Shown piece after piece: positions 26,559 to 51,053 of a stretch of 64,000 bases of DNA. This DNA is from a sulfur-oxidizing endosymbiont of Gigantopelta aegis (GTDB lineage: Bacteria; Pseudomonadota; Gammaproteobacteria; GRL18): the NCBI RefSeq assembly GCF_016097415.1, contig NZ_JAEHGE010000001.1, positions 1,425,015 to 1,489,014 on the forward strand. The letters are read 5' to 3'. The notes under the pieces were generated by a model, which saw nothing but the letters and a program-made list of their open reading frames with translations, did not search any database and was not told the DNA's origin. Positions within the stretch are counted from its first letter, which is position 1, and each line of letters opens with the position of its first letter. The translations under genes and the position numbers were made by a program.

Positions 26559-28068
26559 TGTGGCTATACTTAACCGGACACACAACTTAAAATAACTAAA
26601 AGATAAAAAGTGTGACCTAAAATGAATGATCAAACAAAAAAACCGAATAAAAGCTATACATCAGAATTTAAAGAATCAGCTGTCAAATTAGCTAATGAGA
26701 CGGATCAACCCGTTTCTCAGACTGCCAGGGAGCTAGGTGTTAATGTAAATACTCTACATACCTGGATCAGTAAATATTCCAAACCGGTGAAGACGGTAGC
26801 CAATAGAAGTGATGAACACATTTATGATGAAGTAAAACGTCTGAAAAAGAATTGGCAAAAGTGATTCAGGAGCGTGATTTATTAAAAGGCCACAGCGTAC
26901 TTTGCAAGGGAAACTTTGTGAAGTACGCATGGATAACTGATCAGGCTAAAGATTACCCGGTAACGATTCTGTGCCGTTTTATGGATGTTTCCCGTAGTTG
27001 CTATTATGATTGGGTTAGCTCTCCTAAAACGGATAGAGAGAAAGAAAATGAAGCGCTTACTGAGCAGCTAAAAAACTGTTTGAAGACAGTCGCAAGACTT
27101 ATGGAACCCGTCGTCTTAAAAGAAAACTGGCTGAAAAAGGCGTTCATATAAGCCGCCGGAGAATTGGTCGATTAATGAAAAAAGCCGGTTTGTTTTGTAA
27201 AACGAAGAGACGCTTTAAAGCGACGACTAATTCCAAGCATAATAAGCGTATATCTCCAAATTTACTGGAAAGAGAGTTTACTGTCTCTCAACCTGATCGC
27301 TACTATGTGGGTGATATTACCTATATTGCCACCAAGGAAGGCTGGTTATATTTAGCGGTTGTCATTGACTTATTCTCTAGGCAAATTGTTGGCTGGTCGA
27401 TGGATGAGCGAATGAAAGCCAAGCTAGTCAATGATGCTTTACTGATGGCCATATGGAAGCGTAAACCAATGGATGGATTGCTTTGGCATACTGACCGAGG
27501 TAGCCAATATGCCTCTGATAGTCATAGAAAAATATTGTCGGATCATAACATAATTCAGTCTATGAGCCGCAAAGGAAATTGCTGGGACAATGCTGTATCA
27601 GAGAGCTTCTTTCATAGTTTGAAAACTGAATTGACGCACCATTGTCGATTCAAAACCAGAGTAGAAGCAAAGCAGGCAACATTTGAATATATTGAGGTAT
27701 TTTATAATCGGGAGCGACTTCATTCGGCTAATGATTATTTGTCACCAGTCGATTATGAAATACAGCAGGAAATAGCTTAAATCGATTGATTGAAGAGGGG
27801 TAAAAGGCGACATAAATGCCGCCCATTACCGTTGACGGCCATCGGCTCCTCAGCCTGTGCCGTGAAGATATTGTAACAGGATCATTACCGTTGTGAAAAT
27901 ACCTTGGGTGAATGGAACGGCTCTATCGTTCCAGAGGGCAAAGCCCTTTCTCTTCATCTGTTTAAAGTTAACATGAGAAACTAAAATGATAGGAAATACA
28001 AAATGACAAAAATCACTTGAAACAGCCAAAAAAATATTTAGAAAACTGTCCGGAAAAGTGTTGACACA
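26559..28068 (+). mobile_element. IS3-family insertion sequence, first copy
   Basis: The 1510-bp element has imperfect terminal inverted repeats: left TGTGGCTATACTTAACCGGA from 26559; right end, read inward on the minus strand, TGTGTCAACACTTTTCCGGA from 28068. It carries IS3-type orfA and orfB. No matching 3-4 bp duplication is visible at its edges. The two flanks carry pieces of different genes, so a rearrangement probably followed insertion. Confidence 0.88.
26622..27780 (+). pseudogene. IS3-family transposase OrfA/OrfB, frames broken
   Basis: OrfA starts at 26622 (MNDQTKKPNKSYTSEFKESA) with a helix-turn-helix (QTARELGVNVNTLHTWISKY). OrfB has the rve catalytic core: D in [21 protein letters not shown] in [11 protein letters not shown] in [11 protein letters not shown]. 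Ordinary IS3 elements use one -1 shift between orfA and orfB. Here extra breaks occur at A5 26844-26848, A4 26884-26887 (two bases short) and A6 27070-27075. Restoring the A residues gives RLKKELAKVIQERDLL and [20 protein letters not shown]. As written it is inactive. Confidence 0.88.
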
Positions 28069-29519
28069 TCAGGATTTTTTCCTGATGCCTTCATATAAAA
28101 TAATAGTGCTTGGGCGGCATTCATATTAATTGATATGCGTTCGGGTAGATTATCTGCGGCATCCTGGAATATTTCTAAGGACTCAAGTAGACGATTTTTA
28201 TTATAAAGACGCATGCCTTTGCCATTTTGTAATAAATAATGGTACTTCTGTGTCATTGCTTCAATGGTTGATGAATTGGCATCAAAGACACTATTAATAT
28301 CATCTTGTAGTGCTTCTGCTAATTCTGTTTCACCTAAATCTTCAGTGGTTTTGATGAGGTCGGATTTGAGTGCTTCAGGCAGTTCAGAGAGAGGGCCAGA
28401 TAAGTTCTCAATGGCTTTTTGAAATAATTCCCTGGCATTGTCTTCGTTGCCCAATTTTTTTTGAGTCATGCTTTCAACAATTTGCGTATGTAAAATAGCC
28501 TGTTTATCTTTACGGTAAATTTTTTGCGCGGATGTTATGGTTTGCACGGCTTGTTTAGCTTTACCATTATCAACATAGAGTTTGGCGAGATTCATATTAT
28601 CGCCCACACTGCCAAAACAGGAGTTTTTACCTTGTGATACGGCGGTCTTTAATGATTTTTCTGCGGTATCAAAGTCGTCATTTTTTATGGCTACTTGAGC
28701 AAGATGTTGTTGTCTGGCAATGGCATAGGGTGATATTTTAGTAGCATTGCTTAAGATGTTTTGTACTTCTTCTGGCTTGTCTTGCTCTTCAAGAACTTGA
28801 GCGAGCAGATCATAGGCTTCGATATAATTTTTGTTTTCCTTAATCACTTCTTCCAATAGGGGTTGGGCTTGCTGAAACTCATTGCGAGCCATGAATGTCT
28901 TTGCCTTGCCCACTTTTGCCCATTGAAAATCTCTAACGGAGAGGGCTTTATCATACACTGCCTGAGCAATGTCCAGTTCATTGGCGGCCAGGGCAATTTC
29001 CCCCTTTAGCTTGCCGATTTCTAATGCCTGTTTACTATGTACTGCCATTTTTTTATCAGCAATCTTAAGTGCTTGGCTATAGTCTTTTTTATTGTAGGCA
29101 ACATAAATGTCTTTCATGATGGCTTTTTTTTCCATCAATATTTCAAGACGTTTGAGTAAGAGATCTTTAGGAAAGGGTTTGTTGAGGTAGCCATCAGGAC
29201 GGTATTCGACGGCGGCCATGACCATGCTTTGGGTGTTTTCAGCGGTGATCATAATGTAGATGGTGCCATAAGGGATTAAATGGCGGTGCATGATTTCTTC
29301 AAGTAATTGTTGGCCGTTTTGACCTTCACCCAGATTATAGTCACATAAAATCACATCAAATTTATTATAAGTAACTTTTTTCAGAGCTTCTTTGGCATCC
29401 TTAGCATCCTGTATTTCTTTGGCACCGCAACTGACTAGAATTGAGCGTAGCATAGAGCGGTAATTGCCGAAATCATCGACAATCAAAAAACGTATTTTTT
29501 CAAGATCTAAACGAGCCAT
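28038..29519 (-). pseudogene. TPR response regulator, C-terminus truncated by IS3
   Basis: A CheY-like receiver (residues 1-130; acidic VDDFGNYR, phospho-acceptor Asp60 in VILCDYNLGEG, Lys in YLNKPF) is followed by a long helical region of TPR-type repeats (about 135-480). The native frame stops matching at about 28069; the last nine residues VSTLFRTVF are read from the IS3 terminal repeat. The family has no DNA-binding domain and probably acts by protein contact. How many residues are lost is unknown. It may still fold. The start is ATG at 29517-29519. Confidence 0.8.
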
Positions 29520-29625: not shown

Positions 29626-30057
29626 CTAATGCAGGTCATCTTCTGTGCCATTGACATCTACTTGTCCTGACATGCGGCGACGAATATGCGACCAGGACAT
29701 GCCGATGGCCAGTACCATGGAAAGTAAGGTCAGGATAATATAAGTAATGGTTTGGATATTATCAGCAGGAACTATTTCCCAATCGATCACCATCCATAAG
29801 AGCGTGCCGAAGAACGCAAAGGCTAAAATCAGGCCGATTAAACCCAATGAACTAATAGTGGCGCGAATATAAACCACCCAGCCAATGATAAGGATGATTC
29901 CAGCAAATGCCATCAGTGGTTCAAAACCGGACTCCAGGCCAGTGAGCGCCCAGTCAAAAAAGGAATAGCCACTGGGGTTATAGGTCGCAAAAACTAAAAT
30001 AAGAGCAAAAAACAGTCGAACTAAAAAACTTTCCAGACTAAATCCGTGACGAGCCAT
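29626..30057 (-). CDS. Membrane protein, probably DUF6524
   Basis: A 143-aa protein with four membrane helices (about residues 10-27, 45-65, 70-90, 104-125) and a short acidic C-tail after the arginine cluster HIRRRMSG. It resembles a conserved small membrane family of unknown function (DUF6524 from memory). It is the gene after the PP2C/kinase fusion on the same strand, 40 bases downstream. Confidence 0.6.
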   Translation of the reverse strand: MARHGFSLESFLVRLFFALILVFATYNPSGYSFFDWALTGLESGFEPLMAFAGIILIIGWVVYIRATISSLGLIGLILAFAFFGTLLWMVIDWEIVPADNIQTITYIILTLLSMVLAIGMSWSHIRRRMSGQVDVNGTEDDLH

Positions 30058-30097: not shown

Positions 30098-31837
30098 TTA
30101 TTTTACTAAAAAATACACCAGAATCAAATTTATCAGCAATGATGCAATACTGATGCTGCGCCAGACTAGAAGCGGATTACGCTCAATCAAAGGAACTGCG
30201 GTGTTATTAAGAAAATGCGGATTGGGATGTTGTAAGTCATGCAAAAATTCAAATACATCCTCATGACGCATTTTAATATCTAAGGATAAGGCTTTTTTTA
30301 TCGCCCCGTCCATCCAATTAGGTACCATGGTATTGGCATGGATACTATCGACATACTGTAGTTGCGAGAGTTGTCGGTAATTTGCTTTCTCAGGCATGTC
30401 TTTGCCGAAGGGAAGTTTATTGTTTAATAATTCGTAGGTGATGACTGCCAACGAATAAAGATCGCTACGCTCTCCCCCAGAATGCCCCAAGTAAAATTCT
30501 GGGGCGCTATAATTAATTGTACCGAGCAAAACATCCTCGTCAGAATTTTTTTTCATTTCATTAATACCGGCAATTTTGATCGAGCCAAAATCAATTATTT
30601 TAACTTTTCCTTCAGGGCTGATAATGATGTTTTCCGGTTTTAAATCCTGATGCAGCATTTCCAAACGATGAAAGGCACGTAAACCACGGGCAATTTGTTC
30701 AACTATGGGCAATACCAGTTCAATCGAAGGCAGTGGGTTTTGTTTCATCCATTCTCGTAGGCTGACACCTTCGAGATATTCGGTGACATAGTAGAGTGCA
30801 CGTGCCTTTTGTTTGGGACTAATAACCTCTAAAACATAGGGTGACTTTATCCGTTTGCCAGCCCATTCTTCATGTAAAAACTGTTCGATAAAATGCTCGT
30901 CATCTTCATAATTAATAGACGGTGCTTTAAGAATAACGTGGCTATCTGTTTTTACATGTAAGGCAGTGTAAACATGAGTTCGCTTGCTAGCATGGATTTC
31001 TTTGAGGATCTTGTAGCCATCGAATATCATGCCCTTCTCCAATGGCGGAGGGAAGGGCAGTTCATGGGCTTTTTGCAACATTTCCTCTTCTTCAGGAAGC
31101 GGTAAATTGGTGATTTTCAGTAATTGTAAACTGAGATTGTCATCACATTGATTGTCACTGGCTAATTGGGCAATTTCAGCGCATTTTTGTTGTAATAAAT
31201 CATTGTCATAGCTGCTATTATCGGAACTTGTGAGGATTTCCCGTAACTTTTTTGTGGTAATAAAGTCATGGATGCCATCAGTGGAAAGCAGAAATATATC
31301 GTCTTTTTCCAAGGGCACTTTGCGGTAATCAATATCCAAATGCAGATCTATACCCATCGCCCGATTAAGATAATTTTTTTCGTCGGACACCCACACCCGA
31401 TGATCGCGGGTTAATTGTTCCAATTCACCATCACGCAGGCGGTAAACGCGCGAGTCACCGATATGAAAAATATGTGCGGTGGCAGACTTTAAAATCACAA
31501 TCGTCAGAGTCGTGACCATACCCTTAGTGCTTTGATAATCAGTATGACCACGACTATAAAGCCAGTTATTCAATGCGGAGATAATTTTTTGCGAGGAATT
31601 TTGTACAGTCCAGGAATCGGGGGTACTATAATAATCGGTAATAAAACCATTCACACAAGCATGGCTCGCTTCTTTGCCTGCCTCACTGGAGCTCATGCCA
31701 TCAGCAATGGCAATGACTATACCTTTGTTTTTTAATGCGTGGCCTTCAGGCACCAGAGAAGAAAGACAATCATCATTATCGGCCTTGACTCCTTTATCAC
31801 TAAAAGAACCAATATTAATTTCAAGTTTAGGGGTCAT
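30098..31837 (-). CDS. PP2C phosphatase-Ser/Thr kinase fusion, membrane-anchored
   Basis: A 579-aa protein. Residues 1-245 are a PP2C phosphatase (ADNDDC, AIADGMSSSEAG, HIGDSRVYRLRDG, LLSTDGIHDF, QCDDNLSL). Residues about 270-530 are a protein kinase: HVILKAP holds the ATP lysine, HQDLKPENIII the catalytic loop, IIDFGS the DFG motif, GTINYSAPEF the activation segment. The glycine loop is degenerate (ILKEIHASKRTHVYTA). A C-terminal membrane helix (ISIASLLINLILVYFLV) anchors it. In other gammaproteobacteria such fusions often lie beside nitrate assimilation genes; here the nitrate genes are 11 kb away, separated by an IS and the efflux operon. Confidence 0.9.
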   Translation of the reverse strand: MTPKLEINIGSFSDKGVKADNDDCLSSLVPEGHALKNKGIVIAIADGMSSSEAGKEASHACVNGFITDYYSTPDSWTVQNSSQKIISALNNWLYSRGHTDYQSTKGMVTTLTIVILKSATAHIFHIGDSRVYRLRDGELEQLTRDHRVWVSDEKNYLNRAMGIDLHLDIDYRKVPLEKDDIFLLSTDGIHDFITTKKLREILTSSDNSSYDNDLLQQKCAEIAQLASDNQCDDNLSLQLLKITNLPLPEEEEMLQKAHELPFPPPLEKGMIFDGYKILKEIHASKRTHVYTALHVKTDSHVILKAPSINYEDDEHFIEQFLHEEWAGKRIKSPYVLEVISPKQKARALYYVTEYLEGVSLREWMKQNPLPSIELVLPIVEQIARGLRAFHRLEMLHQDLKPENIIISPEGKVKIIDFGSIKIAGINEMKKNSDEDVLLGTINYSAPEFYLGHSGGERSDLYSLAVITYELLNNKLPFGKDMPEKANYRQLSQLQYVDSIHANTMVPNWMDGAIKKALSLDIKMRHEDVFEFLHDLQHPNPHFLNNTAVPLIERNPLLVWRSISIASLLINLILVYFLVK

Positions 31838-31994
31838 AAATAGCTGCCGGATAATGGTTTTGAGGAACTTTGGAAGATCACAGTTTACAGGAAAATAGTG
31901 AACTAAAAAAGAGGGTGCATACAGTGGACCCCATTGTCAAGACAGCTTTCTCAAATATTAAGATATAATTCTGTTGGTTATTTATAGTATTAGT

Positions 31995-32086
31995 CTTATC
32001 CACATATCCACAGGTCTGCCAGTAGTCCAGAGACGCTTGCGATATATCTCAGGGCTACTGGCTTGGCCTGTGGATATGTGGACAAG
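31995..32086. repeat. 92-bp hairpin inside the second IS3 element
   Basis: Between the orfB stop and the IS end, CTTATCCACATATCCACAGG (31995-32014) pairs with CCTGTGGATATGTGGACAAG (32067-32086), and the pairing continues into GCCAGTAG/CTACTGGC. The outermost bases of the left arm are TTATCCACA, the DnaA-box consensus. It looks like a short palindromic element nested in the IS, or a structural feature of this IS type. Confidence 0.65.
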
Positions 32087-32117
32087 GCGGTTGCCAGTAA
32101 AGTTGATTATCCTCTCA

Positions 32118-33272
32118 TCATGCTGCCCGTTTTAAGTCTGGAACAACTTCTTTCATCACGCCATAGATCTCTGCAGGCGTTTTTCCACCGTGTGTACTGT
32201 GTGGTCGTTCATGGTTGTAAAACTCAAAATATTCCTTTAATGAGCTCTTTAGCTCATCAATACTTTGGTAATCCTTGAGGTAAATTTCCTCATATTTTAC
32301 ACTTCGCCAGAGTCGTTCAATCATAATGTTATCCATTGCTCTGCCTTTGCCGTCCATGCTGATTTTTATATCATTGGCCTTTAGAACACCTGTAAATGCT
32401 CTGCTAGTATATTGAGCACCTTGATCCGTATTGAAGATTTCTGGCTTTCCATATCGTCGCAGTGCTGTTTCCAGACTACTGATACAAAAGCTTTCTTCCA
32501 TGCTGGTTGACACTTCCCAGGACAGCACAAAACGGCTACTCCAGTCCATAACAGCACTTAGGTAGACAAATCCATGTGGCATCCGTAAATACGTGATATC
32601 TGTGCACCAAACCTGGTTATTCCTATTAATATCAATTCCTTTGAGCAAATATGGATAGAGGTTATTTACTTTGCAAGGCTTGCTGGTATTGGGTTTTGGT
32701 GCCACTGAAACCAATCCCATGATCCGCATAAGCCGTTGAACTTTTTACGATTAATTTTATAACATTTCAATCTTAATGCATTACGAATTTGACGACTGCC
32801 ATAGAATGGATGTTTTATGTACAACTCATCAATCAAATTCATTAATGTTAAATCTTTATTTTGCAGAGGCTTTTTAGGTTGATAGTAATAGCTTGAACGG
32901 TTCAGGCCGATAAGCTCACATTGTTTTTTGATGCTCAACTGAGGGTGCTCTTTTCTATGCAACACCGCTTTTCTGCTCTACTCAGTTGAACATCTTCAAC
33001 TTTTTTTGACAGCCAGTCAGCCTCTACTTTTAGTTGACCTATTTGGCTGTACAGGTGTTCTTTTCCTTTTCATGTTCAGCATCTTTATTCTCTAATTTTT
33101 TTGAAAAAGTATCGGCTGCACCATCAAGCATCTGCTTTTTCCAGCTATTGACCTGGGTGGTGTGCACTTCAAATTCTGACGCAATTTCTGCGACTGTTTT
33201 TTGACCTTTCAAAGCCTCAATGGCTACTTTTGCTTTAAATTTGTTGTTGAATGTTTTTCTTTTTGTGCTCAT
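32118..33272 (-). pseudogene. IS3-family transposase OrfA/OrfB, frames broken
   Basis: OrfA begins at 33272 (MSTKRKTFNNKFKAKVAIEA, HTH TVAEIASEFEVHTTQVNSWK). It continues in a shifted frame (EHLYSQIGQLKVEADWLSKK) if the T4 run 33061-33064 had one more T. OrfB spans 32965 to 32118, with a break at T5 32742-32746; repair reads INRKKVQRLMRIMGLVSV. The rve core is present: CTDITYLRMPHGFVYLSAVMD, FNTDQGAQYTS, NIMIERLWRSVKYEE. Inactive as written. Confidence 0.88.
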
Positions 33273-33336
33273 TTTTTTGTTCCCCGTTAGGTTAGCTCTT
33301 ATATCTTAACCTATTGTCCAGTTTTCGGGGTCCACT

Positions 33337-33982
33337 ATAGCAATCAACCTGCTTTGCACTTCAAATGTAGGATGTGGTGAGGAACGAACCGCATCAAAGG
33401 CTTTAAACAAACGTTTTTGATGCGGTTCGCTGTACTCCCCACATCCTACAAGTGTAATGATAAATGGGCTGTTTTATCTGCTCCAAAAAAGATAATGCTT
33501 GGCCAAGCTGTAAAGTCAAACAGTCTTGAATTCAGGCGCTACTTCTTGCTTCATTGATATAGAAATAACTTTTTTTTCTTAATAAAATTATTTCCAACAT
33601 TAAAAAATTTTAATGTTGGTGTAAGGCTACTGAAACATTGCTAGGCGTATAGTAATTCCCAAAGCTTTAGAGATTCACTGACATGATTTCTTGGTTGAGT
33701 TAATAAACTCCTTATAAATTAACTTTTGTAAGGAGTTATTGATCCCTAATACAAAAAAAATGATTAAGATAAGCCTTTTGTCAGATGTTCTGACTTAATT
33801 CTGCCACGCCTAATTTTATTGCTTCCTGAATTCAGCCTTGCTGTCCTAAATTGAATTTGATAATAACACGGTGATAAACGTTCTGTTTTTCTTTTGAAAA
33901 TGCTTTTCTCCAAAATGTAATTTTATCCAAAACGAGACTTGAATCTAAAAAATAATTTGAATCACACCTAAAAGGTATACGC
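33337..33982. other. Intergenic region upstream of the efflux operon
   Basis: About 650 bases without a gene. It holds a palindromic repeat (33367-33449), a near-perfect 26-bp inverted repeat (CCAACATTAAAA / TTTTAATGTTGG, 33594-33619) and a hairpin with arms AACTCCTTA/TAAGGAGTT at about 33708-33740. Any of these could bind a metal-responsive regulator or end transcription; I recognise no CueR- or CusR-type box with confidence. Confidence 0.5.
33367..33449. repeat. 83-bp palindromic intergenic repeat
   Basis: GTAGGATGTGGTGAGGAACG at 33367-33386, with AACCGCATCAAA after it, mirrors the right arm that ends ..CCCCACATCCTAC at 33449. It is the clearest member of a dispersed family also seen near 26326-26384 and at 47446-47515. 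Confidence 0.75.
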
Positions 33983-35350
33983 ATGAAGGCTATTATTCCA
34001 AGTAACAGGATGCCCCGTTGTGAATTATTGTTTGTTCGCACCAGTATGGTCATTAGCGATAGTAAAAGATTACTGCTCTATCTATTATTGACCAGCCTAC
34101 TCAGTGTCAATATAGCGATTGCAAGTCCTAAGGTTCTCAGCTTGGAAATGTCAGTATCACAGGCTATTCGTGACAACCCCAGTTTAGCAGAAATAACGGC
34201 TCGTTATGAAGCTCTCTCAGCCATTCCATCTCAGGTTGGCAGCTTGCCAGACCCGACACTTAGTTTTAATGCGCTTAACCTACCTACAGATACCTTTAAT
34301 CTTGATCAGGAACCGATGACGCAATTGCAAGTTGGTTTAACCCAGGTGATCCCATTCCCCGGTAAACTTGCGCTGAATGAAGAAATCAGTCAATTTGAAG
34401 CAGATGCTGCCAAGGATAATATTGCTGAGGCACAATTACGTTTGGTTAGCCAAGTCAAAATAAGCTGGTGGAGTTTGTTTTATATGGATCGAGCGTTGGA
34501 AATTGTAAGTAATAATCAACGTCTATTACGTCAATTTGTAAAAATTGCTGAAACCAAATATGAAGTAGGCAATGGACTGCAACAAGATGTTTTATTGGCT
34601 CAACTCGAATTGTCAAAACTACTGGATCAAAAAATAAAGCTAGAAGGACGCAGACGCAGTCAGGCAGCCTTACTCAATAAACTATTAGATGACCCCGCAA
34701 ATACCCCCATATTATTGCCTAAGAATGAGAGCCTTACGCAGAAGCTACCAGAAATAATCCCAGAAACAGCGCTTTATCAACAAGCCGAAAATAAACGCCC
34801 AATACTCATGCAATACTCTAAAGGTGTCCAGGCCGCTCAGTCTCGAGTTGCACGTGCCGAAAAAGATTATTATCCGGATTTTATGCTGGGTGGATTTTAT
34901 GGTGCGCGTCAAGGCGATAACCCAGCCAATATCGGTGGCAGACGTAGTGATCTTGTCAGCATTAAACTTTCCATGAGCTTACCAATATTTACTGAACGTA
35001 AACAAGCAAAAGCGGTTGATCAACGTAATAGCGAACTGCTCAAACAACGTTATTCATTGCAGGACATGAACAATCATGTGCAAACACAAATCTCACAAGC
35101 AACTGCTGACTTTCAACAGGCAAAGCAACAGGTGGTGTTATTTAATACTGGCATTATTCCACAGGCGAGCCAGACGGTGGCATCAATGTTAGCAGGTTAT
35201 CAAGTCAGTGAAGTTGATTTTCTTAATCTTGTTCGCAGTCAAATTACTTTGTTTAACTATGAAACACGCTATTGGAAAGCATTCACTGAGGCCAATCAGG
35301 CCTTGGCAAAATTAATCGCAGCGGTTGGAGAGGACAATATTTATGAATAA
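33983..35350 (+). CDS. Outer-membrane efflux protein (TolC/CusC-like)
   Basis: A 455-aa protein of the outer-membrane efflux family, probable outer channel of the tripartite metal pump encoded downstream. After a signal-like segment (LLLYLLLTSLLSVNIAIAS, ending near residue 48) come two long alpha-helical repeats typical of TolC folds (SQVGSLPDPTLSFNA; FPGKLALNEEISQFE; ARAEKDYYPDFMLGG-like second repeat). ATG at 34046 is an alternative start that gives a more normal signal peptide. It ends inside the start region of the adaptor gene. Confidence 0.88.
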   Translation: MKAIIPSNRMPRCELLFVRTSMVISDSKRLLLYLLLTSLLSVNIAIASPKVLSLEMSVSQAIRDNPSLAEITARYEALSAIPSQVGSLPDPTLSFNALNLPTDTFNLDQEPMTQLQVGLTQVIPFPGKLALNEEISQFEADAAKDNIAEAQLRLVSQVKISWWSLFYMDRALEIVSNNQRLLRQFVKIAETKYEVGNGLQQDVLLAQLELSKLLDQKIKLEGRRRSQAALLNKLLDDPANTPILLPKNESLTQKLPEIIPETALYQQAENKRPILMQYSKGVQAAQSRVARAEKDYYPDFMLGGFYGARQGDNPANIGGRRSDLVSIKLSMSLPIFTERKQAKAVDQRNSELLKQRYSLQDMNNHVQTQISQATADFQQAKQQVVLFNTGIIPQASQTVASMLAGYQVSEVDFLNLVRSQITLFNYETRYWKAFTEANQALAKLIAAVGEDNIYE

Positions 35351-36698
35351 GCAAATAATTTTAACAGCATTAATCATGTCGGGCATTGGTGTTGGTGTTG
35401 GTTATTGGTTTGCGCCATCACAATCAGTAGCAGTGACAAGTGGCAATACTCAAGCTCAGCCAGAAAAGCGTAAACCCTTATTTTATCGTAATGCGATGAA
35501 CCCTAGCGTGACCTCACCCATTCCCTCTAAAGATGCCATGGGCATGGATTACGTTCCTGTCTATGCTGATAGTGCTGCCGACAGCAAAGTCCCCGGACTG
35601 GTTAAAATTGATCCGGTTATTGTACAAAACATGGGGGTTCGCACCAGCATTGCAAAATTGAGCACCCTCAGTCATACCATTCGAACCGTAGGTCGAGTTG
35701 ATTATGATGAACAGCGTATGGCACGCTTGCATCCTAAAACAGAAGGTTGGATTGAAGAATTATACATTGATACTACCGGGGAACGTGTTGAGAAAGGCAG
35801 TATTTTATTAAGTGTTTATTCGCCTAAGTTGGTCTCTACGGAACAAGAATATTTACTCGCATTAAGCAGTTATCATACCCTTAAAAACAGTCCCATCGAT
35901 GATATCAGGCGCGGAGCAAAAAGTTTATTAAAAAGCTCTCGAGAGCGTTTAACTTTATTGGATGTACCCGATCATCAAATTCGTGAACTGGAGAAAACAC
36001 GTAAGATAAAACGCAATCTGCATATCCATACTAGCGTTTCTGGTACGGTGATAAAAATTGGTGCCCGTAAGGGGCAGTATGTTACCCCCCAAACTGAACT
36101 TTATATGATTGCTGATTTAGAAAAAGTATGGGTTTATGCCAATATTTATGAATATGAATTACCCTGGGTAAAAGAAGGTGATGAGGTCTCAATGACGTTG
36201 ACTGGCATTCCCGGCAAAACCTTTCGCGGTAAGGTCAGTTATATTTATCCTTATGCTGAAGCAAAAACTCGAACCATTCAAGTAAGAGCGCAGTTTGATA
36301 ATTCTGAGCGTTTATTAAAACCTGAAATGTATGCCGATATTACCATTAAATCAAGTCAATCGGTTGAAGCTATTATTGTGCCATCTGAAGCCATTATCCG
36401 TTCAGGTAATAATGCTCAAGTGTTTGTTGTCCATGGTTCAGGCAAGTTTGAACCGCATAATGTTACTTTGGGCATCGAATCAAATGGACAAGTTGCCATA
36501 CTTGATGGTATTAAAGCCAATGATCGCGTTGTTACCTCAGGACAATTTTTAATAGACTCCGAATCAAAATTACGTGAAGCCACCGCTAAGATGATCAGCG
36601 CGTCCAAAACTAAGCCCATGGATATGGAGATGCCCAAAAAGTCAGCTCCCAGCAAAGCAAATAATACTGAAGTGAACAAGGGGATGAATCGTGATTAA
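35343..36698 (+). CDS. cusB: Periplasmic adaptor of heavy-metal RND pump (CusB-like)
   Basis: 451 aa from ATG 35343, preceded by GGAGAGG (35327-35333) and overlapping the previous gene by 8 bases. A membrane anchor (residues 4-24) is followed by a heavy-metal-binding domain ([20 protein letters not shown], about 45-70) and the barrel-sandwich, alpha-hairpin and beta-barrel domains of membrane-fusion proteins ([45 protein letters not shown]). The met/pro-rich N-terminal domain points to copper or silver. The C-terminus is Lys/Met-rich. The stop overlaps the pump start by 8 bases. Confidence 0.92.
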
Positions 36699-37428
36699 TT
36701 CGATTATTGCCAGCTCATTACGGGATCGTTTTATGGTTTTAATGGTAACAGTCATTATTACTGTTGTGGGTGTTTGGGCCTATAAAACAATTCCCCTAGA
36801 TGCCATTCCAGACTTGTCAGATGTACAAGTTATTATTTTTACCAAATACCCCGGTCAGGCGCCCCAAGTTGTTGAAGATCAAGTCACCTATCCACTGACC
36901 ACCGCTATGCTAGCGGTACCCAACACAAAAGTAGTTCGAGGCTATTCTTTTTTTGGCCTATCCTTTGTTTACATTATATTTGAAGACCATACAGATATGT
37001 ATTGGGCGCGCTCCAGAGTGTTGGAATCACTCAATTACGTGAGTGGTCGTTTGCCTCAGGGGATTTCTCCCACGCTAGGCCCGGATGCCACTGGTGTTGG
37101 TTGGGTGTATGAATATGCCCTGGTGGATAGAACCGGCAAACATGATCTCGCCCAATTACGTTCTATTCAAGACTGGTATTTACGTTATCCGTTACAAACA
37201 GTAGAAGGCGTATCGGAGGTGGCTTCGGTGGGTGGTTTTGTTAAACAATATCAGATTGAAGTCGATCCCAATGCGCTGATTAACTATAACATTCCATTAA
37301 GTAAGGTCAAACATGCGATACAACGTTCCAATAGTGATGTCGGCGGCCGTTTAATCGAATTGGCTGAAACCGAATATATGGTGCGTGGCCTAGGCTATAT
37401 CCGTTCTCTGGATGACCTCAATAAAATT

Positions 37429-39082
37429 GGGTGCAGATCTTCTAAAACGATGAAAATAAACAATAAATTCAATAGTTAATGCTTGAAAAATGAAAAGAGA
37501 AAGATCAAAATATTGTTTTATAAGCTTCTTAGTTTCATAACCCAATAAAAAGACCTCTCTCATGAACATAGCATACCTAAATTCAAACGATTATTCATTC
37601 TTTTTTGGTGCTCAGGATCAACTTGAACAGTTGATTAAACAATTACAAACAGATAAACATAAAAATTGTGAACATGGTGACATAGAAGATTTTATTAACA
37701 AGGAAGGTCAGGAAATTTTAAGACGACTACTGCAGGGCTGGCTAGATTTAAAAGCCGCCAACGAGGAAAAAAGAAGCTGTGTTAACACCGTTTCAGGAGA
37801 CAAGCTGAATTATGTCCGTACAAACACCCATCGTTCGCTGAATAGTTTGTTTGGTCAGGTCACTGCCACCAGAAATGGTTATAGTCAAAGAAATAAAGAC
37901 AGTTTATTTCCTATTGATGCTGAACTGAATTTATCAACTAACAGTTACAGTGATGGTATTTATTTCAGAGTGTCTAAAGAAGCCATTCGAGGTTCATTCG
38001 ATGATGTCGTTGAAAGTATTGATAGTACAACTGCTGGTCATGTGCCCAAAAGACAGTGCCTCAATATAGTGAGAGATGTTGCTCAGGATTTTGAAGGTTT
38101 TTATAAGAAAAACGATTTATTGAACCCGAAAAACATCAGATTTTCTGGTCTTAACCTTTGATGGAAAAGGGATAGTTATGCGACCTGAAGGTTTAAGAGA
38201 ATGCACAAAGAAAAATGCCCAGAAGAATAAGAAGCTCAAAAGTCGTCTGAGTCAGGGAGAGAAAAAAGACCGAAAACGTATGGCACAAGTGGCTGCCGTT
38301 TATACCGTACAATCTCATATTCGTGCTGCTGAATCTATTATGAAAGTAGCAGAAGATGATAATGTCGTTCCTTTTCGAACCCCCATTAGAAATAAGCGGG
38401 TTTGGGCGAGTGTTGAGCGAGAGGCAGAAACTGTTATTGAGGAAGCATTTCAGGAAGCACTACAAAGAGATCCAAAACAAAAGAGGGAATGGGTTATTTT
38501 AATTGATGGTTTACCTCACCAGATCAAACTCATCAAAAAGTGATGAAGAAACTGAGCATCAAAGCAACTATTGTAATGGACTTTATCCATGTCTTGGAAT
38601 ATCTCTGAAAGCAGCTTGGTGCTTCTTTGATAAAGGTGACGAAGCGGTTGAGGAATGGATAGCTGAAAGAGCAGTCAAAATACTTAATGGCCATTGTTCA
38701 CAAGTAGCCAAAGGGATCAGACTCAGTGCCACAAGACGGAAAATAGAAAGTAGAGAAAATATTGATAAATGTGCTGATTATTTACTAAAAAATAAAGAGC
38801 AGTTGCAGTATGGCATCGCATTAAAAGCGGGTTATCCTATTGCCAGTGGCGTTATTGAAGGTGCATGCCGTCACCTCATTAATGACCGACTTGATATAAC
38901 CGGTGCTCGTTGGAGTCTGCAGGGAGCAGAAGCAGTATTGAAATTACGCTCACTAAAATCCAGTGGTGACTTTGAAATGTATTGGAAGTTTTATAAGAAA
39001 ATGTCAAAAAAAAGAAATTATGATTTTTTAGAGGTTAACAACTTTGGGTAATGAATTTTGTCGTTTTAAAGGAACTACACCC
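37429..39082 (+). mobile_element. ISKra4-family-like insertion sequence in cusA
   Basis: The 1654-bp element has about 29-bp imperfect inverted ends starting GGGTGCAGATCTTCTAAAAC on the left, with GGGTGTAGTTCCTTTAAAAC read inward from the right. It is flanked by the 9-bp direct repeat AATAAAATT (37420-37428 and 39083-39091). The encoded transposase belongs to the ISKra4 type. Confidence 0.9.
37562..39051 (+). pseudogene. ISKra4-family transposase, frames broken
   Basis: Three overlapping pieces (37562-38161, 38178-38543, 38503-39051) form one transposase. Recognisable blocks are VLTFDGKGIVMRPEGLRE, WVILIDGLPHQIKLIKK, then MDFIHVLEYL and ASGVIEGACRHLINDRLDIT near the C-terminus. Frame joins need an extra A in A5 38535-38539, an extra G at 38607, and a change near 38135 whose sign I cannot settle. 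As written no full-length transposase is made. Confidence 0.85.
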
Positions 39083-41520
39083 AATAAAATTGCTATTGGC
39101 GTGGATGATAAAGGAACGCCAATTCGTTTACAAGATGTTGCACAGGTTCACTATGGCCCAGAGTTACGCCGTGGCGTTGTTGATCTAAATGGTCAAGAAG
39201 AAGTGGCGGGAGGCATTATCATCATGCGCTTTGGTGAAAATGCTTTAAAAACCATACAAGGTGTAAGAGCCAAACTGGAAGAGCTGAAACAAGGCTTGCC
39301 TGAAGGCGTAGAAATTGTTCCCGTTTATGATCGGGGCGATTTGATTGAGCGGGCTGTGAAAAGTTTAAATGACTCATTAATACAGGAAATTATTCTGGTC
39401 AGTATTGTGGTGGTGTTGTTTTTGTTGCATTTACGTTCCGCACTCGTCGTTATTATCACCTTGCCTTTGGGTATTTTAATTGCCTTTATCATTATGAAGT
39501 GGCAGGGTTTAAATGCCAACATTATGTCTCTAGGAGGCATTGCAATTACTATTGGTACCATGGTTGATGGCGCTATTGTCATGGTCGAAAATACCCATAA
39601 ACGTCTCGCTCTGGCGAATAAGGAGAAAGGGGATAAATTAAATACGGCAGAACATTGGGAGGTTGTTGGTAAGAGTGCCAAGGAAGTAGGCCCTGCATTA
39701 TTTTTCTCACTATTAGTTATTACGGTTTCGTTTTTACCTATTTTTACCATGCAGGCACAAGAAGGACGATTATTTAGTCCGTTAGCTTTGACGGCTGCTT
39801 ATGCTATGGCTGCTTCGGCTATCTTAGCTATTACTCTAGTTCCAGTCATGATGGGCTTTTTAATTCGCGGGAAAATCATTGACGAAGATAAAAATCCCTT
39901 TAATCGTATATTGCATGGCTTACATTCACCGGCTTTAAATTTTGCCATGCGCTGGCGTACACTAACGGTTATTGTCGCACTGCTGATATTAGCGGTAACC
40001 TATTATCCTTTTTCTAAACTCGGTAGTGAATTTATGCCTCCCTTAGATGAAGGTGACATTTTATATATGCCAACCACTTTTCCAGGAATTTCCATCACTA
40101 AAGCCAAAGAACTATTACAGCAAACAGACAAAATACTGGCTACTTTCCCGGAAGTACATCATGTGTTTGGTAAAATCGGTAGGGCAGAATCAGCAACAGA
40201 TGCTGCCGCTCTGTCAATGATGGAAACCACTATACGTTTGAAACCTAAATCAGAATGGCCTGATCCGGATAAGACTACCAAGGAACTGACCAATGAAATG
40301 GACAAGGCGATCCAGTTCCCTGGTGTTGCTAATGCTTGGACCATGCCAATTAAAACGCGTATAGACATGCTTTCAACGGGTATTAAAACCCCTATTGGCA
40401 TCAAAATATCAGGTCCTAATTTGGTCAAGTTGCAAGAGCTTTCTGAAGCGGTAGAGCAAGCGATGAAAACGCTACCAGAAACATTATCCGCTTTTGGTGA
40501 TCGCACTGTGGGTGGCTATTTTATGGATTTTGATATCGATCGAGAAAAAATTGCCCGTTATGGTCTAACCATCGGTGATGTTCAGGATGTTATTCAAAGT
40601 GCTATTGGAGGTATGAATATTGGTGAAACCGTTGAAGGCTTAGAACGTTATCCCATTAACTTACGTTACCCTCGTGAATTACGTGATAATGTAGAAAGCA
40701 TGAAAAGAGTACTCATTCCAACACCAACGGGCGCTCAAATCCCTTTGACAGAGCTGGCAGAGTTTACTTATCGACGTGGCCCACCGGTCATTAAAAGTGA
40801 AGATGCCCGACCAAATGCTTGGATTTACGTTGATATTACAAGCTCTGATATTGGTGGCTTCGTTGCTAAAGCCAAAGAAGTGTTGGCTAGCCAAGTGACT
40901 ATTCCTGCTGGGTATACTGTGACCTGGTCAGGGCAGTTTGAATACATGGAACGTGCAGCCAAAAGACTGCAAGTTATCGTGCCGATTACATTATTGATTA
41001 TTTTTATCTTGCTTTACGTCAGTTTTCGCAATATTACTGAGCCGGTTATCGTCATGCTATCCATTCCTTTTGGGCTTATTGGCGGCATTTGGACCGTTTA
41101 TGCGCTTGATTATAATATGTCTGTCGCAGTCGCCGTTGGTTTTATTGCGCTGGCGGGAATGGCTGCTGAAATTGGTGTTTTAGTGTTAAGCTTTATTGAT
41201 GCGGAAATAGCCAAACTTCGAGTCGGACGGACAGAACCCTTATCAGCAAAAGAGATCCGTCTGGCGGCTCAATCAGCCACCGCAATGCGAGTACGGCCTG
41301 TCGCTATGACGGCTATTTCAACCATGGTTGGTCTAGTACCCATCATGTTGAGCACGAGTACAGGTTCTGATGTCACACATCGTATCGCCTCTCCCATGTT
41401 AGGTGGTATGTTAACAGTCATGATTCTTAACTTACTGGTATTGCCTGTTATCTACAGCCTTGTGCTTCAAATGCAGGAGAAAAAACGCTCGCAGTAGGCG
41501 TTATTTGTAGCTGTTATTAA

Positions 41521-41560
41521 TGGCTGTTAATGACTGTTAATGACTGTTAATGACTATTGT
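41521..41560. repeat. 10-bp tandem repeat after cusA
   Basis: Four units close to TGACTGTTAA run from 41521 to 41560 between the convergent ends of cusA and the amino acid permease gene. The last unit abuts the permease stop codon. Confidence 0.75.
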
Positions 41561-42855
41561 TAATAGGGGCGGGAAAAAATATGTTTGCGAATGATCTTTC
41601 CATAGCTTAGCTCAAATAAAAAGGAGATAGCAATAAAAGATAAAAAGATAACAATTGCTCGTGGTGTATTTGAATAAGTATGAATAAGCAATGTCATTAA
41701 AGCCATAAAACTGACCAAGCTTGCCAGCACTGTTATTTTTTTACTGGCATTGATTGCTTTGTGGAGTTTATAAGCAGCTACATTGACGATAAAAAAGATC
41801 AATAAAAAGCTGGCGCTGCCAATAATGGCTATTTCGCTTAGGTCAATTGAATTGGCCATGATCAAGCTTAGAGCGGCAGTCAGAATAACGCCTAAAGTGG
41901 GTATGTTACGTTTTTCATTAGCCAGCGACTCAGGTAGTTCGCCTTCTTTTGCCAGCATATAACTCAGGCGAGCATTGCCATAGATCGTGGCATTTATCGC
42001 TGAAAATGTTGCCAATAGAGCGGCAACCGCAACAATAGTGAAACCCACTTGACCAAGAGCCGGTTTTGCCGCGACCGCTAAGGCATAATCTTTTGCCATC
42101 ACGAGTTGGCTTTCGGGTACGGTGCCAACGGTAATGATGGCAATGAGAACATAAAGTAAAATAACCAGCAAGACTGAACCATAAAAAGCCCTGGGTAAAT
42201 TCGTGTCGGGATTTTTAATGTCTTCTGCTGCATTGGAAATCAATTCAAAGCCTTCATAGGCAACAAAAATTATCATGCCTGAAACGACGATAGAAAAAGA
42301 GCTTCCCCATTTCATGGGTGATAGTCGTTCAATATCAACATAGGATGCACTGGCGGCAATAATAAATACCAACAAGATAATCTTAATGATCACAATCAGT
42401 GTTTCAGATTTGCTGACAAAAGATGCGCTGATTAAATTAATTGCAACAGGCAGTAAAATAGCCAGGCTAATTAATAAATGTTTTAACCAAGCTGTTTCAT
42501 TATTGGGAAAGAAGGTTTGTCCATAGGAGGCAAAGGCCACAGCATACAATGAAATGGTGACTAAATAACTTAGCCAAAGCATTAGATTGACGCTACCGGC
42601 TAATAAGTTGTGATTAAATGCTTTATCAATGAATAAAACCGTTCCTCCCCGACTTTTGTAAGTGACGGAAAGTTTGGCATAAGAATAAGAGGTGAGTAAT
42701 GCGACAATTCCGGCAACAAGAAAGGCAATTGCAGTCGCACCATGAGCCAGTGAAACGGCCTCACCGAGTACCGCAAAAATGCCCCCTCCAACCATACCGC
42801 CTATGCCAATTGAAATAGCCCCCAATAATCCAATCGTGCCGTTTTTTTTATTCAT
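41560..42855 (-). CDS. APC-superfamily amino acid permease
   Basis: A 431-aa protein with about twelve membrane helices and the conserved first-helix signature GAISIGIGGMVGGGIFAVLG. The region MIIFVAYEGFELISNAAEDIKNP is the family's helix 6 substrate-site segment. It imports or exchanges an amino acid or polyamine; substrate unknown. It is the last gene on this strand after the nitrate transporter, 42 bases downstream, and may be cotranscribed with it. Confidence 0.88.
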   Translation of the reverse strand: MNKKNGTIGLLGAISIGIGGMVGGGIFAVLGEAVSLAHGATAIAFLVAGIVALLTSYSYAKLSVTYKSRGGTVLFIDKAFNHNLLAGSVNLMLWLSYLVTISLYAVAFASYGQTFFPNNETAWLKHLLISLAILLPVAINLISASFVSKSETLIVIIKIILLVFIIAASASYVDIERLSPMKWGSSFSIVVSGMIIFVAYEGFELISNAAEDIKNPDTNLPRAFYGSVLLVILLYVLIAIITVGTVPESQLVMAKDYALAVAAKPALGQVGFTIVAVAALLATFSAINATIYGNARLSYMLAKEGELPESLANEKRNIPTLGVILTAALSLIMANSIDLSEIAIIGSASFLLIFFIVNVAAYKLHKAINASKKITVLASLVSFMALMTLLIHTYSNTPRAIVIFLSFIAISFLFELSYGKIIRKHIFSRPY

Positions 42856-42897: not shown

Positions 42898-44376
42898 CTA
42901 GTCTACCTCAATCATTTCCACAGTACCATCAGGTAGTACTTCAGCCATGTGGCCTTTGGGTTCTTCAATAAATTGAATCGCCACTAGCACAAAGAGGGCA
43001 GAACCAGCGATGGTTAAGAAAAATATCTGTGGTGAGACGAAAGATAATACAGTCAGGAATAATACTGCACCTACATTACCATAAGCACCGACCATTCCAG
43101 CTATTTGTCCAGTCATGCGACGTTTAATTAAGGGGACCATAGCAAACACTGCACCTTCACCGGCTTGTACAAAGAATGAACATAACATCGTCACAGCAAC
43201 GGCTAGGAATAATGACCAACTGGATTCAATTTGACTCATAATATAATAACCGATGACCAAACCGATTAAGAAAATGGTCAGGGATTTTTTACGGCCATAT
43301 TTATCACTAATAAGACCACCACCGGGACGTGCAATTAAATTCATAAAAGCAAAACCTGCAGCTAACATACCAGCCATAATGGCAGTGATGCCATGACTTT
43401 CATGAAAGGTTTCATAAAAGAATAGGGGAAGCATAGAAACAACCGCTAGTTCAGAGCCAAACGTCACCATGTAAGCCAAATCAAGGATGGCCACTTGTTT
43501 AAATTTGTAGCGATGAATCTTAGGAATTTCTTCTTTTAAATGCTCATTGTTGATGTGAAATATTTTATAAATATTGTAGGCAAATAACGCAGTAATGCCG
43601 AAGTAAATTATTGTGGCAGTATTGGCTTCAAGTAAGCTAACGCCTGAGGGTGATAACTTCCAGGTAAGCAGTGCTAAAGTGGCATACATCGGAATTGACA
43701 TTAAGATGTAAAAATACAAATCACCTTTTGATGTGACTTCCATTGCACCCATGCGCTTGGGCTTGAAATAAGTAGAACCCTTGGGCGTATCGCTGACACT
43801 GAAAAAATAGATTACTGCATAAACAAGTGCAATGACACCAGTGAGTGCTACAGCATAACGCCAGCCTTCATCACCACCGAATAATAAAGCAATCGTCGGT
43901 AAACTCATCGCCGCTGCCGCAGAACCAAAGTTACCCCAACCGCCATAAATACCTTCAGCAACGCCAACTTGTTTGGCTGGGAACCATTCGCCCATCATGC
44001 GAATGCCAATCACAAAACCGGCGCCAACAAAGCCCAGTAAAAAACGAGATAAGGCAAGTTGTTCGAAGGTGTCTGCAAAGGCAAACATAAAACAAGGAAT
44101 ACTACCGATAGATAAGAGGGTGGCAAAGGTGCGTTTAGGGCCAAATCGATCAACCAGCATACCAATGATGATGCGTGCAGGAATGGTCAAGGCGACATTG
44201 AGAATGAGCAGGGTTTTAATTTGCTCACTTGTGAGTTCCATGGTTTCTTTGATGACAATTAATAAAGGTGCATGGTTGAACCAGACCATGAAGCTGATAA
44301 AAAAGGCTAACCAGGTTAAATGAAGAATTTTGGTTTTTCCAGTAAAGGAAAATAAATTCAGTCTACTATCACTCAT
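42898..44376 (-). CDS. NNP-family nitrate/nitrite transporter (NarK/NasA type)
   Basis: A 492-aa major-facilitator protein with about twelve helices. Both nitrate signature motifs are present: [13 protein letters not shown] (helix 5) and [14 protein letters not shown] (helix 11), plus the MFS loop [16 protein letters not shown]. It is divergent from the assimilatory nitrate reductase gene at 44652, so nitrate uptake for assimilation is the likely role; nitrite export cannot be excluded. The start is ATG at 44374-44376. Confidence 0.92.
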
Positions 44377-50500: not shown

Positions 50501-51053
50501 TGGGTGGATTTAATGCTTCATGTAATAGACTGGCATAAGCAATTTTAGGAACCGCTTTCTTATCACCGGGAACCGGCAAGCCGCCTTCGGCAATATGAAA
50601 TGAACCGGCAGTGGTGCGACGGTCGCGAGAGGTGTTATGTAATACCCCTTGGCTGACGCGGAAGCTTTTTACAAATTCTGATTCAAAATAATCGCCATCA
50701 GCGGGTAAGGATAATTCACGAGCCACGCCATGGCGGTCAAGAATTAACGTGTTAGAGGGTAATACTGTGCTTTTATCACAACCACTATCTTGTAGATAAT
50801 CATCCAAAAAGTCTTGAATACGCTGATCAGCAGGACAAAGATATTGTGATAACAAGCGTGATTTTTCACGATAACTTTCTAAGAGGTCGTCTGCAATAGA
50901 GAAAAAATCATTATCACAATCCTGAGCTTTGCAGGCGGGGAGTCCGGAAGAATGTAGCTTGAGATTAATATAAAGCTGAATACGTTTTTTTTCTTCGGCA
51001 GCTTCGAGAGTGTCGCTACAACTATTTACGCCTAATGATTTTGCTAAATCCAT
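47571..51053 (-). CDS. Very large protein, probable PPi-type PEP carboxykinase
   Basis: A 1160-aa protein without signal peptide or membrane helices. Its size, the central Gly-rich nucleotide-loop-like segment STVSGGGKSEISKAI (about residues 496-510), an upstream region DNYFGYCKKEVKTQISYS and EEEHSGGALAFPRY recall the pyrophosphate-dependent PEP carboxykinases, which are about 1100 aa and very divergent from ATP/GTP enzymes. These interconvert oxaloacetate plus PPi with PEP, CO2 and Pi. The gene is divergent from pyruvate kinase, which fits a role at the PEP node. The match is from memory of motif and size, so the name is provisional. ATG at 51051-51053 is the start. Confidence 0.55.
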   Translation of the reverse strand: MDLAKSLGVNSCSDTLEAAEEKKRIQLYINLKLHSSGLPACKAQDCDNDFFSIADDLLESYREKSRLLSQYLCPADQRIQDFLDDYLQDSGCDKSTVLPSNTLILDRHGVARELSLPADGDYFESEFVKSFRVSQGVLHNTSRDRRTTAGSFHIAEGGLPVPGDKKAVPKIAYASLLHEALNPPKELMTLPFTSTQEEQAESFLSILLRPIVCPEIPTHDPSQSEAEKSMEIRFFAPGTLASNLDFVESIFGNAGNPSLAENDAGLDIEHWVGHTGCVILAPHLVRMKKKDLGLPHIDDATERHIKDGMCWSSEDELYNNGQPFKITARDKRGVIVTILADNYFGYCKKEVKTQISYSTNLFGLAEEEHSGGALAFPRYNHGEEFGKDCRTKNTEYHFSDIVEKYGDIMDLQEEGYAIDKQFPQILYVPETNLQMDLNQQTVSWTSNGKTQTIKLKPGLIYMHPSGYKIAMEKHPKAPSWRIVGTDAEGTFCHKPSTVSGGGKSEISKAIDDAVIYGPLFVNKLDEAMERMDEIFNYDYSKRYLPEFTPDYNDHPPRSPLSMERSLGSMIKMLTQSERKFTPEYNAWLEKIPESSKALAFIIKRFYREEWGDNWKKHFTVDLIDGVQGHELKYQCRQLIMSYLRVGFDQDGAWRIYKMRQDYIVADKLQMEDDISASVVVPAKRLINMPEKNNHECVKLVKNCEYRLFQRPDDAIIKGFDKQTELEMAMKGNFVANYQPLTPDMLKELSEDQVEFDQYTAPMRDLLLDSLAQGKMAVSSAHPLMVNGAPSKNPRYLQLRSDIAHPIKLYLAKMSARFHRRASLEEAICFPVDAVLTGRRNNPPEPAAGIRSLAVYNPIHYQELPELFMDFICSLTGKSPSTTGAGSEGALTKGPFNALLPTADVNNALVSYILTDYSGFSSAAGYVGPHTKVNHDISLIIPEIWALLKPEKRRPDYLINKGQLEKLEDFEHNGKKVLASRLGYRITNLFVHGFFGKIFDNPSAVFDEKILCPETQSMDDFVDGINNIVEAQQKVALEYIDDGSIEQACPPLKALIYIMAHGEYEGKDAHHPEIRAMFTKEALLSSDWYKRRLEVKQERDIALWQRHIDYLSNFLERDSHAEEASRLKISKQLSKAQDKLTQVSSQAYLDELVGTLGADPM

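Follow-up and report, generated by a model that had tools for sequence, protein, structure and literature searches.

The locus

The window, by which we mean the whole analysed stretch of 64,000 nucleotides, contains a gene whose product unites a PP2C-type phosphatase and a Ser/Thr protein kinase in one polypeptide chain. The gene and its surroundings are compiled in Table 1. The genome (4.9 Mb in 11 contigs) holds a single copy of this fusion; several partial and weaker matches belong to other kinases and phosphatases.

Table 1. Features of the fusion locus, in window positions
Feature	Position	Strand	Basis
rve-type transposase; in relatives this place is taken by the response regulator 3' end and a HATPase_c gene (about 235-265 aa)	27175..27780	+	Pfam, relatives
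Response regulator and TPR protein, 493 aa versus 515-522 aa in relatives; its 3' end is missing next to the transposase	28038..29519	-	Pfam, relatives
DUF6524 protein, next gene downstream of the fusion, conserved in part of the family	29626..30057	-	Pfam, flanks of relatives
Fusion of PP2C phosphatase and Ser/Thr kinase, membrane-anchored at the C terminus, PpkB-type, 579 aa (ATG at 31837, stop at 30098)	30098..31837	-	ORF, Pfam, alignment
C-terminal transmembrane anchor, about residues 557-578	30104..30169	-	Hydropathy
Kinase domain, about residues 272-537	30227..31024	-	PF00069 match, StkP alignment (267-537)
Glycine-free nucleotide loop, residues 282-287 (HASKRT), conserved replacement of GxGxxG	30977..30994	-	StkP alignment, 116-row alignment
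PP2C-type phosphatase domain, about residues 1-245	31103..31837	-	PF13672 match, conserved Asp
Insertion sequence with rve transposase (ORF 32118-32729)	31920..33339	-	Pfam, sequence reading
CusC/B/A-type metal efflux operon with CusA broken at 37480-39043, apparently foreign to the locus	33983..41497	+	Pfam, closest CusB comparison
Amino-acid permease, part of the apparently foreign segment between narK and the fusion	41560..42855	-	Profile matches, search in relatives
Nitrate/nitrite transporter of the NarK family, ancestrally next to the fusion on its upstream side	42898..44376	-	TIGR00886 above cut-off
C-terminal tail of NarK (residues 475-492), which the fusion is proposed to target or dock on	42901..42954	-	Tail comparisons
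Assimilatory-type nitrate reductase nasA (molybdopterin and BFD domains), divergent from narK	44652..47405	+	Pfam, relatives

Downstream of the fusion, the closest relatives have the DUF6524 gene, the response regulator-TPR gene, the HATPase_c gene and then genes matching the window from 25731 onward; the gene order of the window is the same up to the transposase at 27175. The HATPase_c gene displaced there (27175-28040) has no close copy elsewhere in the genome (best 27%).

Upstream, narK lies about 11 kb away. A reading of this DNA from its sequence only had placed an insertion sequence (IS) and an efflux operon between the fusion and the nitrate genes; both are indeed there, with narK and nasA beyond them, but the amino-acid permease had been omitted. 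The intervening segment looks foreign, because no counterpart of the permease turns up at E ≤ 1e-100 in any of the family's 23 other genomes and the closest CusB elsewhere is only 41% identical. Base composition does not mark the insertion, G+C being 0.36-0.44 throughout. The efflux operon is broken: its CusA (36691-41497) is divided into parts of 262 aa and 817 aa by a stretch of about 1.5 kb. The ORFs of this stretch match nothing in Pfam at 1e-5 and, as we presume, resemble an ISKra4-type transposase. The IS next to the fusion is bordered by a target duplication of 3 bp (GCA, at 31917-31919 and 33340-33342) and contains an inverted repeat with 20-nt arms (31995-32086). Near-full-length, almost identical copies of it number 27 in the genome by hand count, the window's included, which is a sign of recent expansion. 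That the IS carried the efflux operon along is ruled out by its own target duplication: its flanks were contiguous before it landed, and it therefore entered already joined DNA as a separate insertion.

The stop of narK and the start of the fusion are both intact. A promoter scan upstream of the fusion yielded one weak match versus 0.9 expected, and in a dN/dS analysis of the fusion for decay since the insertion dS was saturated. On the other side of the locus, next to nasA, lies an ORF of 1160 aa (47571-51053, minus strand) with no Pfam match at E 1e-5.

Two active sites in one anchored chain

Pfam places the phosphatase domain (PP2C_2, PF13672, residues 35-203, E 1.1e-16) N-terminal to the kinase domain (Pkinase, PF00069, residues 286-524, E 3.7e-36). 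The chain ends in a hydrophobic segment with a hydropathy maximum of 2.56. Such a segment is found in 115 of 116 relatives, the exception (L056) running off the contig end, and the tryptophan ahead of it, Trp559, is invariant (116/116). An anchor at the C terminus would leave both enzyme domains on the cytoplasmic side, to which the termini of MFS transporters should also face. AlphaFold2, with the fusion and four relatives as input, reached a mean pLDDT of 43.8, too low a value for a comparison of folds.

Conservation of residues was judged from 116 non-redundant fusion rows, among them the window copy. The metal-binding aspartates of the PP2C domain are practically invariant: D46 and D128 in all rows, D233 in 115, D23 and D187 in 114 each. 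The same holds for the kinase, in which K304 and D416, the latter in a D-F-G motif, are found in 116/116, N403 in 115/116, and E323 and D398 in 114/116. The catalytic Asp398 belongs to an H396-Q397-D398 triplet; the Arg of the canonical HRD is replaced by Gln in 80 of the 116 rows. Membrane anchoring, a full set of phosphatase aspartates and a kinase retaining Lys, catalytic Asp and DFG had all been claimed for this chain before, and all three are confirmed.

The claim that the kinase lacks a GxGxxG loop is equally correct. In a gap-free alignment with StkP, the G-x-G-x-x-A positions are occupied by H282, S284 and T287, and not a single one of the 116 rows, window included, has the glycine motif. 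To call the loop degenerate, as had been done, is not justified, since its replacement is a family motif kept across these rows. In place of the three glycines they have H-A-S-x-R-[T/S], with His at position 282 in 76, Ser at 284 in 88 (Gly in 15), Arg at 286 in 90 and Ser or Thr at 287 in 110. Because this motif is conserved while Lys304 and the DFG Asp are invariant, the glycine-free loop is, to judge by the alignment, a maintained alternative and not damage. That it binds ATP we assume. The idea of a switch, with opposed activities in one chain, appears compatible with two intact active sites.

Among the fusions without a recognised partner there are a few that have lost active-site residues (D23S and D187Q in two, E323Q in two, a change of D398 in two). 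To judge by the per-row listing, they come from two loci, L109 (8643-10403 in G262) and L176 (6984-8699 in G337), where residues are apparently lost from both active sites. Both degenerate fusions are flanked by ORFs that resemble, with names given by eye, an inorganic pyrophosphatase and a pyrophosphate-dependent phosphofructokinase. They are possibly repurposed as non-enzymatic regulators.

Neighbours of the fusion in other genomes

In the family of the endosymbiont, the fusion is present in 20 of 24 genomes, its own included, with 21 matches in the relatives. In fourteen of these, narK is the next gene upstream, in the same orientation and at a gap of -13 to 216 bp. Of the remaining seven, three are cut by contig ends, the upstream side of one (G020) was not read, and three belong to an FNT-linked clade, in which FNT or cyanase adjoins the fusion (two fusions in G002, one in G006). 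Where the locus is of the NarK-linked type and the upstream flank could be read, narK is thus the direct neighbour in 14/14 cases, and in L039, L047, L048 and L049 nasA diverges from narK as it does in the window. The 11 kb between the two genes occur in the window alone. The suspicion that the fusion is linked with nitrate genes and that its original neighbourhood was broken up has thereby been substantiated, as has the prediction that narK would adjoin the fusion in relatives free of IS and efflux operon. The window may serve as a clean case of an operon split by mobile DNA.

The class was searched in 276 genomes with E ≤ 1e-60 for the fusion and E ≤ 1e-50 for NarK. The fusion was found in 101 genomes with 115 matches, all of which were classified by hand. 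NarK is directly upstream in 68 (66 by script plus G237:C79, added by hand because of a second NarK on the other side, and G285, with a NarK fragment at the contig end); an FNT adjoins in 21 (19 upstream, two divergent), and an MFS transporter of the NasA type is directly upstream in seven. In six more, nitrate genes are close by without a transporter immediately upstream; two of these six stand at contig ends. The rest comprises the window itself, two loci with EutB and an amino-acid permease, five contig-edge cases, four with nothing recognised and one that was not fetched. When the five edge cases, two further edge cases with nirB downstream and the unfetched locus are subtracted, 107 informative loci remain, the window included, and in 96 of them a NarK, FNT or NasA-type transporter lies directly beside the fusion. 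The linkage to nitrate genes accordingly holds for the majority of loci, but one clade pairs with FNT transporters, often together with cyanase; relatives without a single recognised nitrogen gene nearby do exist, as a minority of 4/107.

Co-occurrence tells a similar story. A NarK of the window's type is present in 80 of the 276 genomes, and 77 of these also have the fusion. The three others are G128, G210 and G296, the last two from one genus; G128 had to be discarded as an example of NarK without fusion, a piece of the fusion being found 72 bp downstream at the contig end.

Beyond the class, the fusion was detected in 93 of 299 genomes of the phylum; 20 loci taken from these gave ten with FNT, four with NarK, five with NasA-type MFS and one with nothing. 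Eleven named plasmid regions with the fusion were also read. FNT is upstream in seven of them (Azospirillum, Acinetobacter, Methylobacterium, Cupriavidus, Ideonella, Psychrobacter, Pseudoalteromonas; the last two records were found via FNT, not by the fusion search) and NarK in two (Catenovulum, Thioclava). On the Sulfitobacter plasmid, a circular record that begins with the fusion, cyanase lies downstream and an FNT match at the opposite end; the region from Shewanella aestuarii has neither transporter. The names FNT and cyanase rest on Pfam for L096 (PF01226, PF02560) and on similarity to those sequences for the others. Genes for nirB, nirD, nasA and ANTAR (NasT-like) proteins are also near the fusion in many loci; many loci of the FNT clade have no nir/nas match within 6 kb (e.g., L098, L100, L122, L124). 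FNTs of the same kind also occur without an adjoining fusion, often beside nirBD or cyanase, in eight plasmid regions (L228-L235) from Moraxella, Rhizobium, Paracoccus, Burkholderia and Leisingera.

A tree of the 116 fusion rows (IQ-TREE quick search, supported by SH-aLRT only) was labelled with the neighbour: NarK, FNT, MFS, other-nitrate, ethanolamine, none or unlabelled. The labels change 17 times along the tree versus 55.4 times when shuffled, and none of 200 shuffles came as low. All 33 FNT rows fall into one branch of 37 (SH-aLRT 100), in the company of two unlabelled rows, one without partner and one NarK row, and the NasA-type MFS rows form a separate branch of 18, which includes the two ethanolamine-linked rows. 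From the small number of changes and the grouping by clade it follows that the type of partner goes with the fusion's own lineage. The two ethanolamine-linked fusions (L116, about 8084 in G232:C34, and L118, about 8263 in G254) have as neighbours no nitrate genes but EutB and an amino-acid permease, which suggests a client linked to ethanolamine.

The C-terminal tail of NarK

Strong conservation marks the roughly 20 residues that follow the final membrane segment of NarK in 48 fusion-linked proteins (EP.G.M.E..PDGTV.MI.V); 47 of these carry Ser or Thr at position 485. The tail of NarK reads ...[18 protein letters not shown].

A natural contrast is provided by genomes with the same NarK and nasA, yet no fusion. 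In the order of G210, none of 12 genomes has a fusion match at E ≤ 1e-50, a search that had no positive control within the order itself, the same query having found the relatives in 101/276 genomes of the class. Five NarKs were found there. Among these five, identity is 0.92 over the body (residues 20-470) and 0.36 over the tail (475-492). Fusion-linked NarK pairs of matched body divergence have a tail identity of 0.96, with a minimum of 0.83 (43 pairs). A repeat with fixed ranges on 47 linked pairs from three lineages, 45 of them from the window's own family, gave mean tail identities of 0.96, 0.94 and 1.00. When the fusionless NarKs are scanned in windows of 18 residues, the lowest values all lie in the tail (down to 0.33); outside it no window falls below 0.70, a value reached at the N terminus. 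Loss of the role in assimilation does not explain this release, since in four of the five loci a nasA-type reductase still stands opposite NarK. The release is seen in one lineage and so counts as a single event. Two of the five fusionless NarKs still have Thr at position 485, which therefore is not singled out as the phosphosite.

The central cytoplasmic loop of NarK ([11 protein letters not shown]...) was considered as a target and dismissed: it stays conserved even without the fusion, which is why the tail is preferred. A distant class of NarK with different tails (46-49% identity, L191-L198) was left out as evidence, as it constitutes a separate subfamily. The same comparison for the termini of FNTs yielded no signal of this kind, as unlinked FNTs retain most terminal residues. 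The endosymbiont has a second NarK (L190, G000:C1:1651097-1652545), 61% identical and with an intact tail, beside which there is neither a fusion nor a recognised nitrate gene. Its tail is not explained by adjacency; it is compatible with an action of the fusion in trans.

Proposed role and alternatives

Taken together, the adjacency in 96 of 107 loci, the co-occurrence in 77 of 80 genomes, the co-evolution of the tail, the tree and the conservation of the catalytic residues point to the fusion as a controller of transporters. With fair but by no means full confidence, we regard it as a kinase/phosphatase of the PpkB type that is anchored by its tail, faces the cytoplasm and is dedicated to the adjoining nitrogen transporter. 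This transporter is probably under its control, NarK through its C-terminal tail. The kinase domain would phosphorylate the transporter or its membrane complex and the PP2C domain would dephosphorylate the same, the opposed phosphorylation states setting uptake according to nitrogen status. The cytoplasmic tail of NarK would then be the docking or phosphorylation site. In the window genome, narK and the fusion no longer form one operon; since neither reading frame is damaged and NarK has kept its tail, they may still act together in trans.

Of course, membership in the same operon could account for the adjacency of transporter and fusion, and the latter might control nitrogen assimilation at another target such as the NasA/NirB reductase, NasS-NasT antitermination, PII or NtrB. 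The genes for nirB, nirD, nasA and NasT-like proteins near many fusions would fit, and a PP2C phosphatase is known to act on PII in Synechocystis, to judge by the title of a work cited in PMC1262709. Yet the directly adjoining gene is a transporter in nearly all informative loci, its type (NarK, FNT or NasA-type MFS) tracks the fusion clade, many FNT-clade loci have no nir/nas match close by, and where the fusion is missing it is only the transporter tail that loses constraint, nasA still being there. We consider another target quite unlikely. The tail itself could have been released for reasons unrelated to the fusion, be it another lost tail partner or drift peculiar to the genus, which would leave the association of fusion and transporter a functional one only. 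That a single lineage is concerned, and that the second NarK of the endosymbiont keeps its tail without an adjoining fusion, speaks for this explanation; the release is, however, confined to the tail and coincides with the absence of just that gene which otherwise stands beside this NarK in nearly all genomes. Coincidence, therefore, appears rather improbable to us.

More directly aimed at the enzyme is the possibility that the kinase half is a pseudokinase, deficient in nucleotide binding, that senses or docks, and that the PP2C half acts on sites phosphorylated by another kinase. Candidates for the latter would be found among the several other kinase-like loci of the window genome, and the universal lack of the glycine loop as well as the frequent exchange of the HRD Arg for Gln are what one would expect. 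A pseudokinase should, however, show some loss of catalytic residues, as is seen at E323 and D398 in two rows of 116; instead, the VAIK Lys, the alpha-C Glu, the catalytic Asp, the Asn and the DFG Asp are near invariant, and the second loop position has retained Gly in 15 rows. A dead kinase is thus rather doubtful, and we return to the active, transporter-directed kinase/phosphatase as the preferred reading.

A wider generalization may be ventured, although we give it somewhat less than an even chance. PP2C-kinase chains could be a family of dedicated, tail-anchored transporter switches with one client per clade: NarK, NasA-type MFS, FNT with cyanase, possibly also ethanolamine or amino-acid permeases. 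NarK would be gated by phosphorylation of its tail via a kinase with a glycine-free loop, and nitrate uptake would be controlled post-translationally, comparable in logic to what has been proposed for the nitrate transporters of plants and yeast. Be that as it may, the pairing rule and the tail signal name a candidate client and a segment of 18 residues for a widespread kinase/phosphatase; if the proposal is true, bacterial nitrate uptake has a dedicated Ser/Thr switch.

Relation to known systems

The fusion is a known kind of protein, PpkB, and its linkage to nitrate genes is already in print; the assignment is based on the domain architecture, the neighbouring genes and the product names given by NCBI, PA1782 itself being outside our alignments. 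Passages in PMC1262709 report a PP2C-kinase fusion for the first time in 2005 and describe the PpkB architecture, with PP2C N-terminal to the Ser/Thr kinase in a single chain. As stated in part of PMC3596284, ppkB directly follows the nitrate transporter gene nasA; a brief remark there on Pseudomonas sp. UW4 also suggests, with reference to the analogous cases of Arabidopsis and Hansenula, that such a kinase phosphorylates the transporter. A table in PMC6954232 has PA1783-PA1781 in the order nasA, ppkB, nirB, with PA1782 as ppkB, and an excerpt of PMC8560001 names PA1782 among the Ser/Thr kinases of P. aeruginosa, of which there are at least three. Control of the nas genes by NtrC is the subject of PMC8443478, in the pertinent passages of which this kinase is not mentioned. 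A search of plasmids gave matches in 34 records, each of them covering 80% of the query or more. Among the 25 rows listed, 22 carry the product name "bifunctional protein-serine/threonine kinase/phosphatase", once with the words reordered, and three are without listed annotation; the named homologues there have an identity of 36-44% over 96-97% of the query. The literature searched offered no substrate of a PP2C-kinase fusion, nor any report of the FNT/cyanase pairing or of NarK tail co-evolution, subscription papers being mostly outside its coverage; in these searches, which were aimed at other subjects, the conserved glycine-free loop did not turn up either. The FNT-paired clade, often with cyanase, and the signal of tail co-evolution are thus what we add to the PpkB picture.

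With PpkB (PA1782) the window copy shares the order of PP2C and kinase in one chain and the origin of its gene beside a nitrate transporter. The nasA-ppkB-nirB arrangement of Pseudomonas resembles, however, the 18-row MFS clade, whereas the window copy sits in the NarK-linked clade and, unlike ppkB directly after nasA, is about 11 kb away from its transporter. The nearest solved kinase domains are those of the PASTA kinases (StkP/PknB/Stk1; StkP 9ruj, E 8.4e-30 over residues 267-537), which have the catalytic residues in common with the fusion. In contrast to them, the fusion has no PASTA domain match in Pfam and its glycine loop is replaced; it scores 160.4 bits with the PASTA kinase model NF033483 (Stk1 family), below the cut-off of 450. 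The Stp1/IreP phosphatases share the PP2C fold and the metal-binding aspartates, but the window copy differs by its fused kinase and reaches 125.4 bits with their model NF033484, again below the cut-off (230). Opposed activities encoded together or in pairs are familiar from Stk1-Stp1 and PrkC-PrpC, as a passage in PMC1262709 has it; what those systems distribute over two proteins is here united in one anchored chain.
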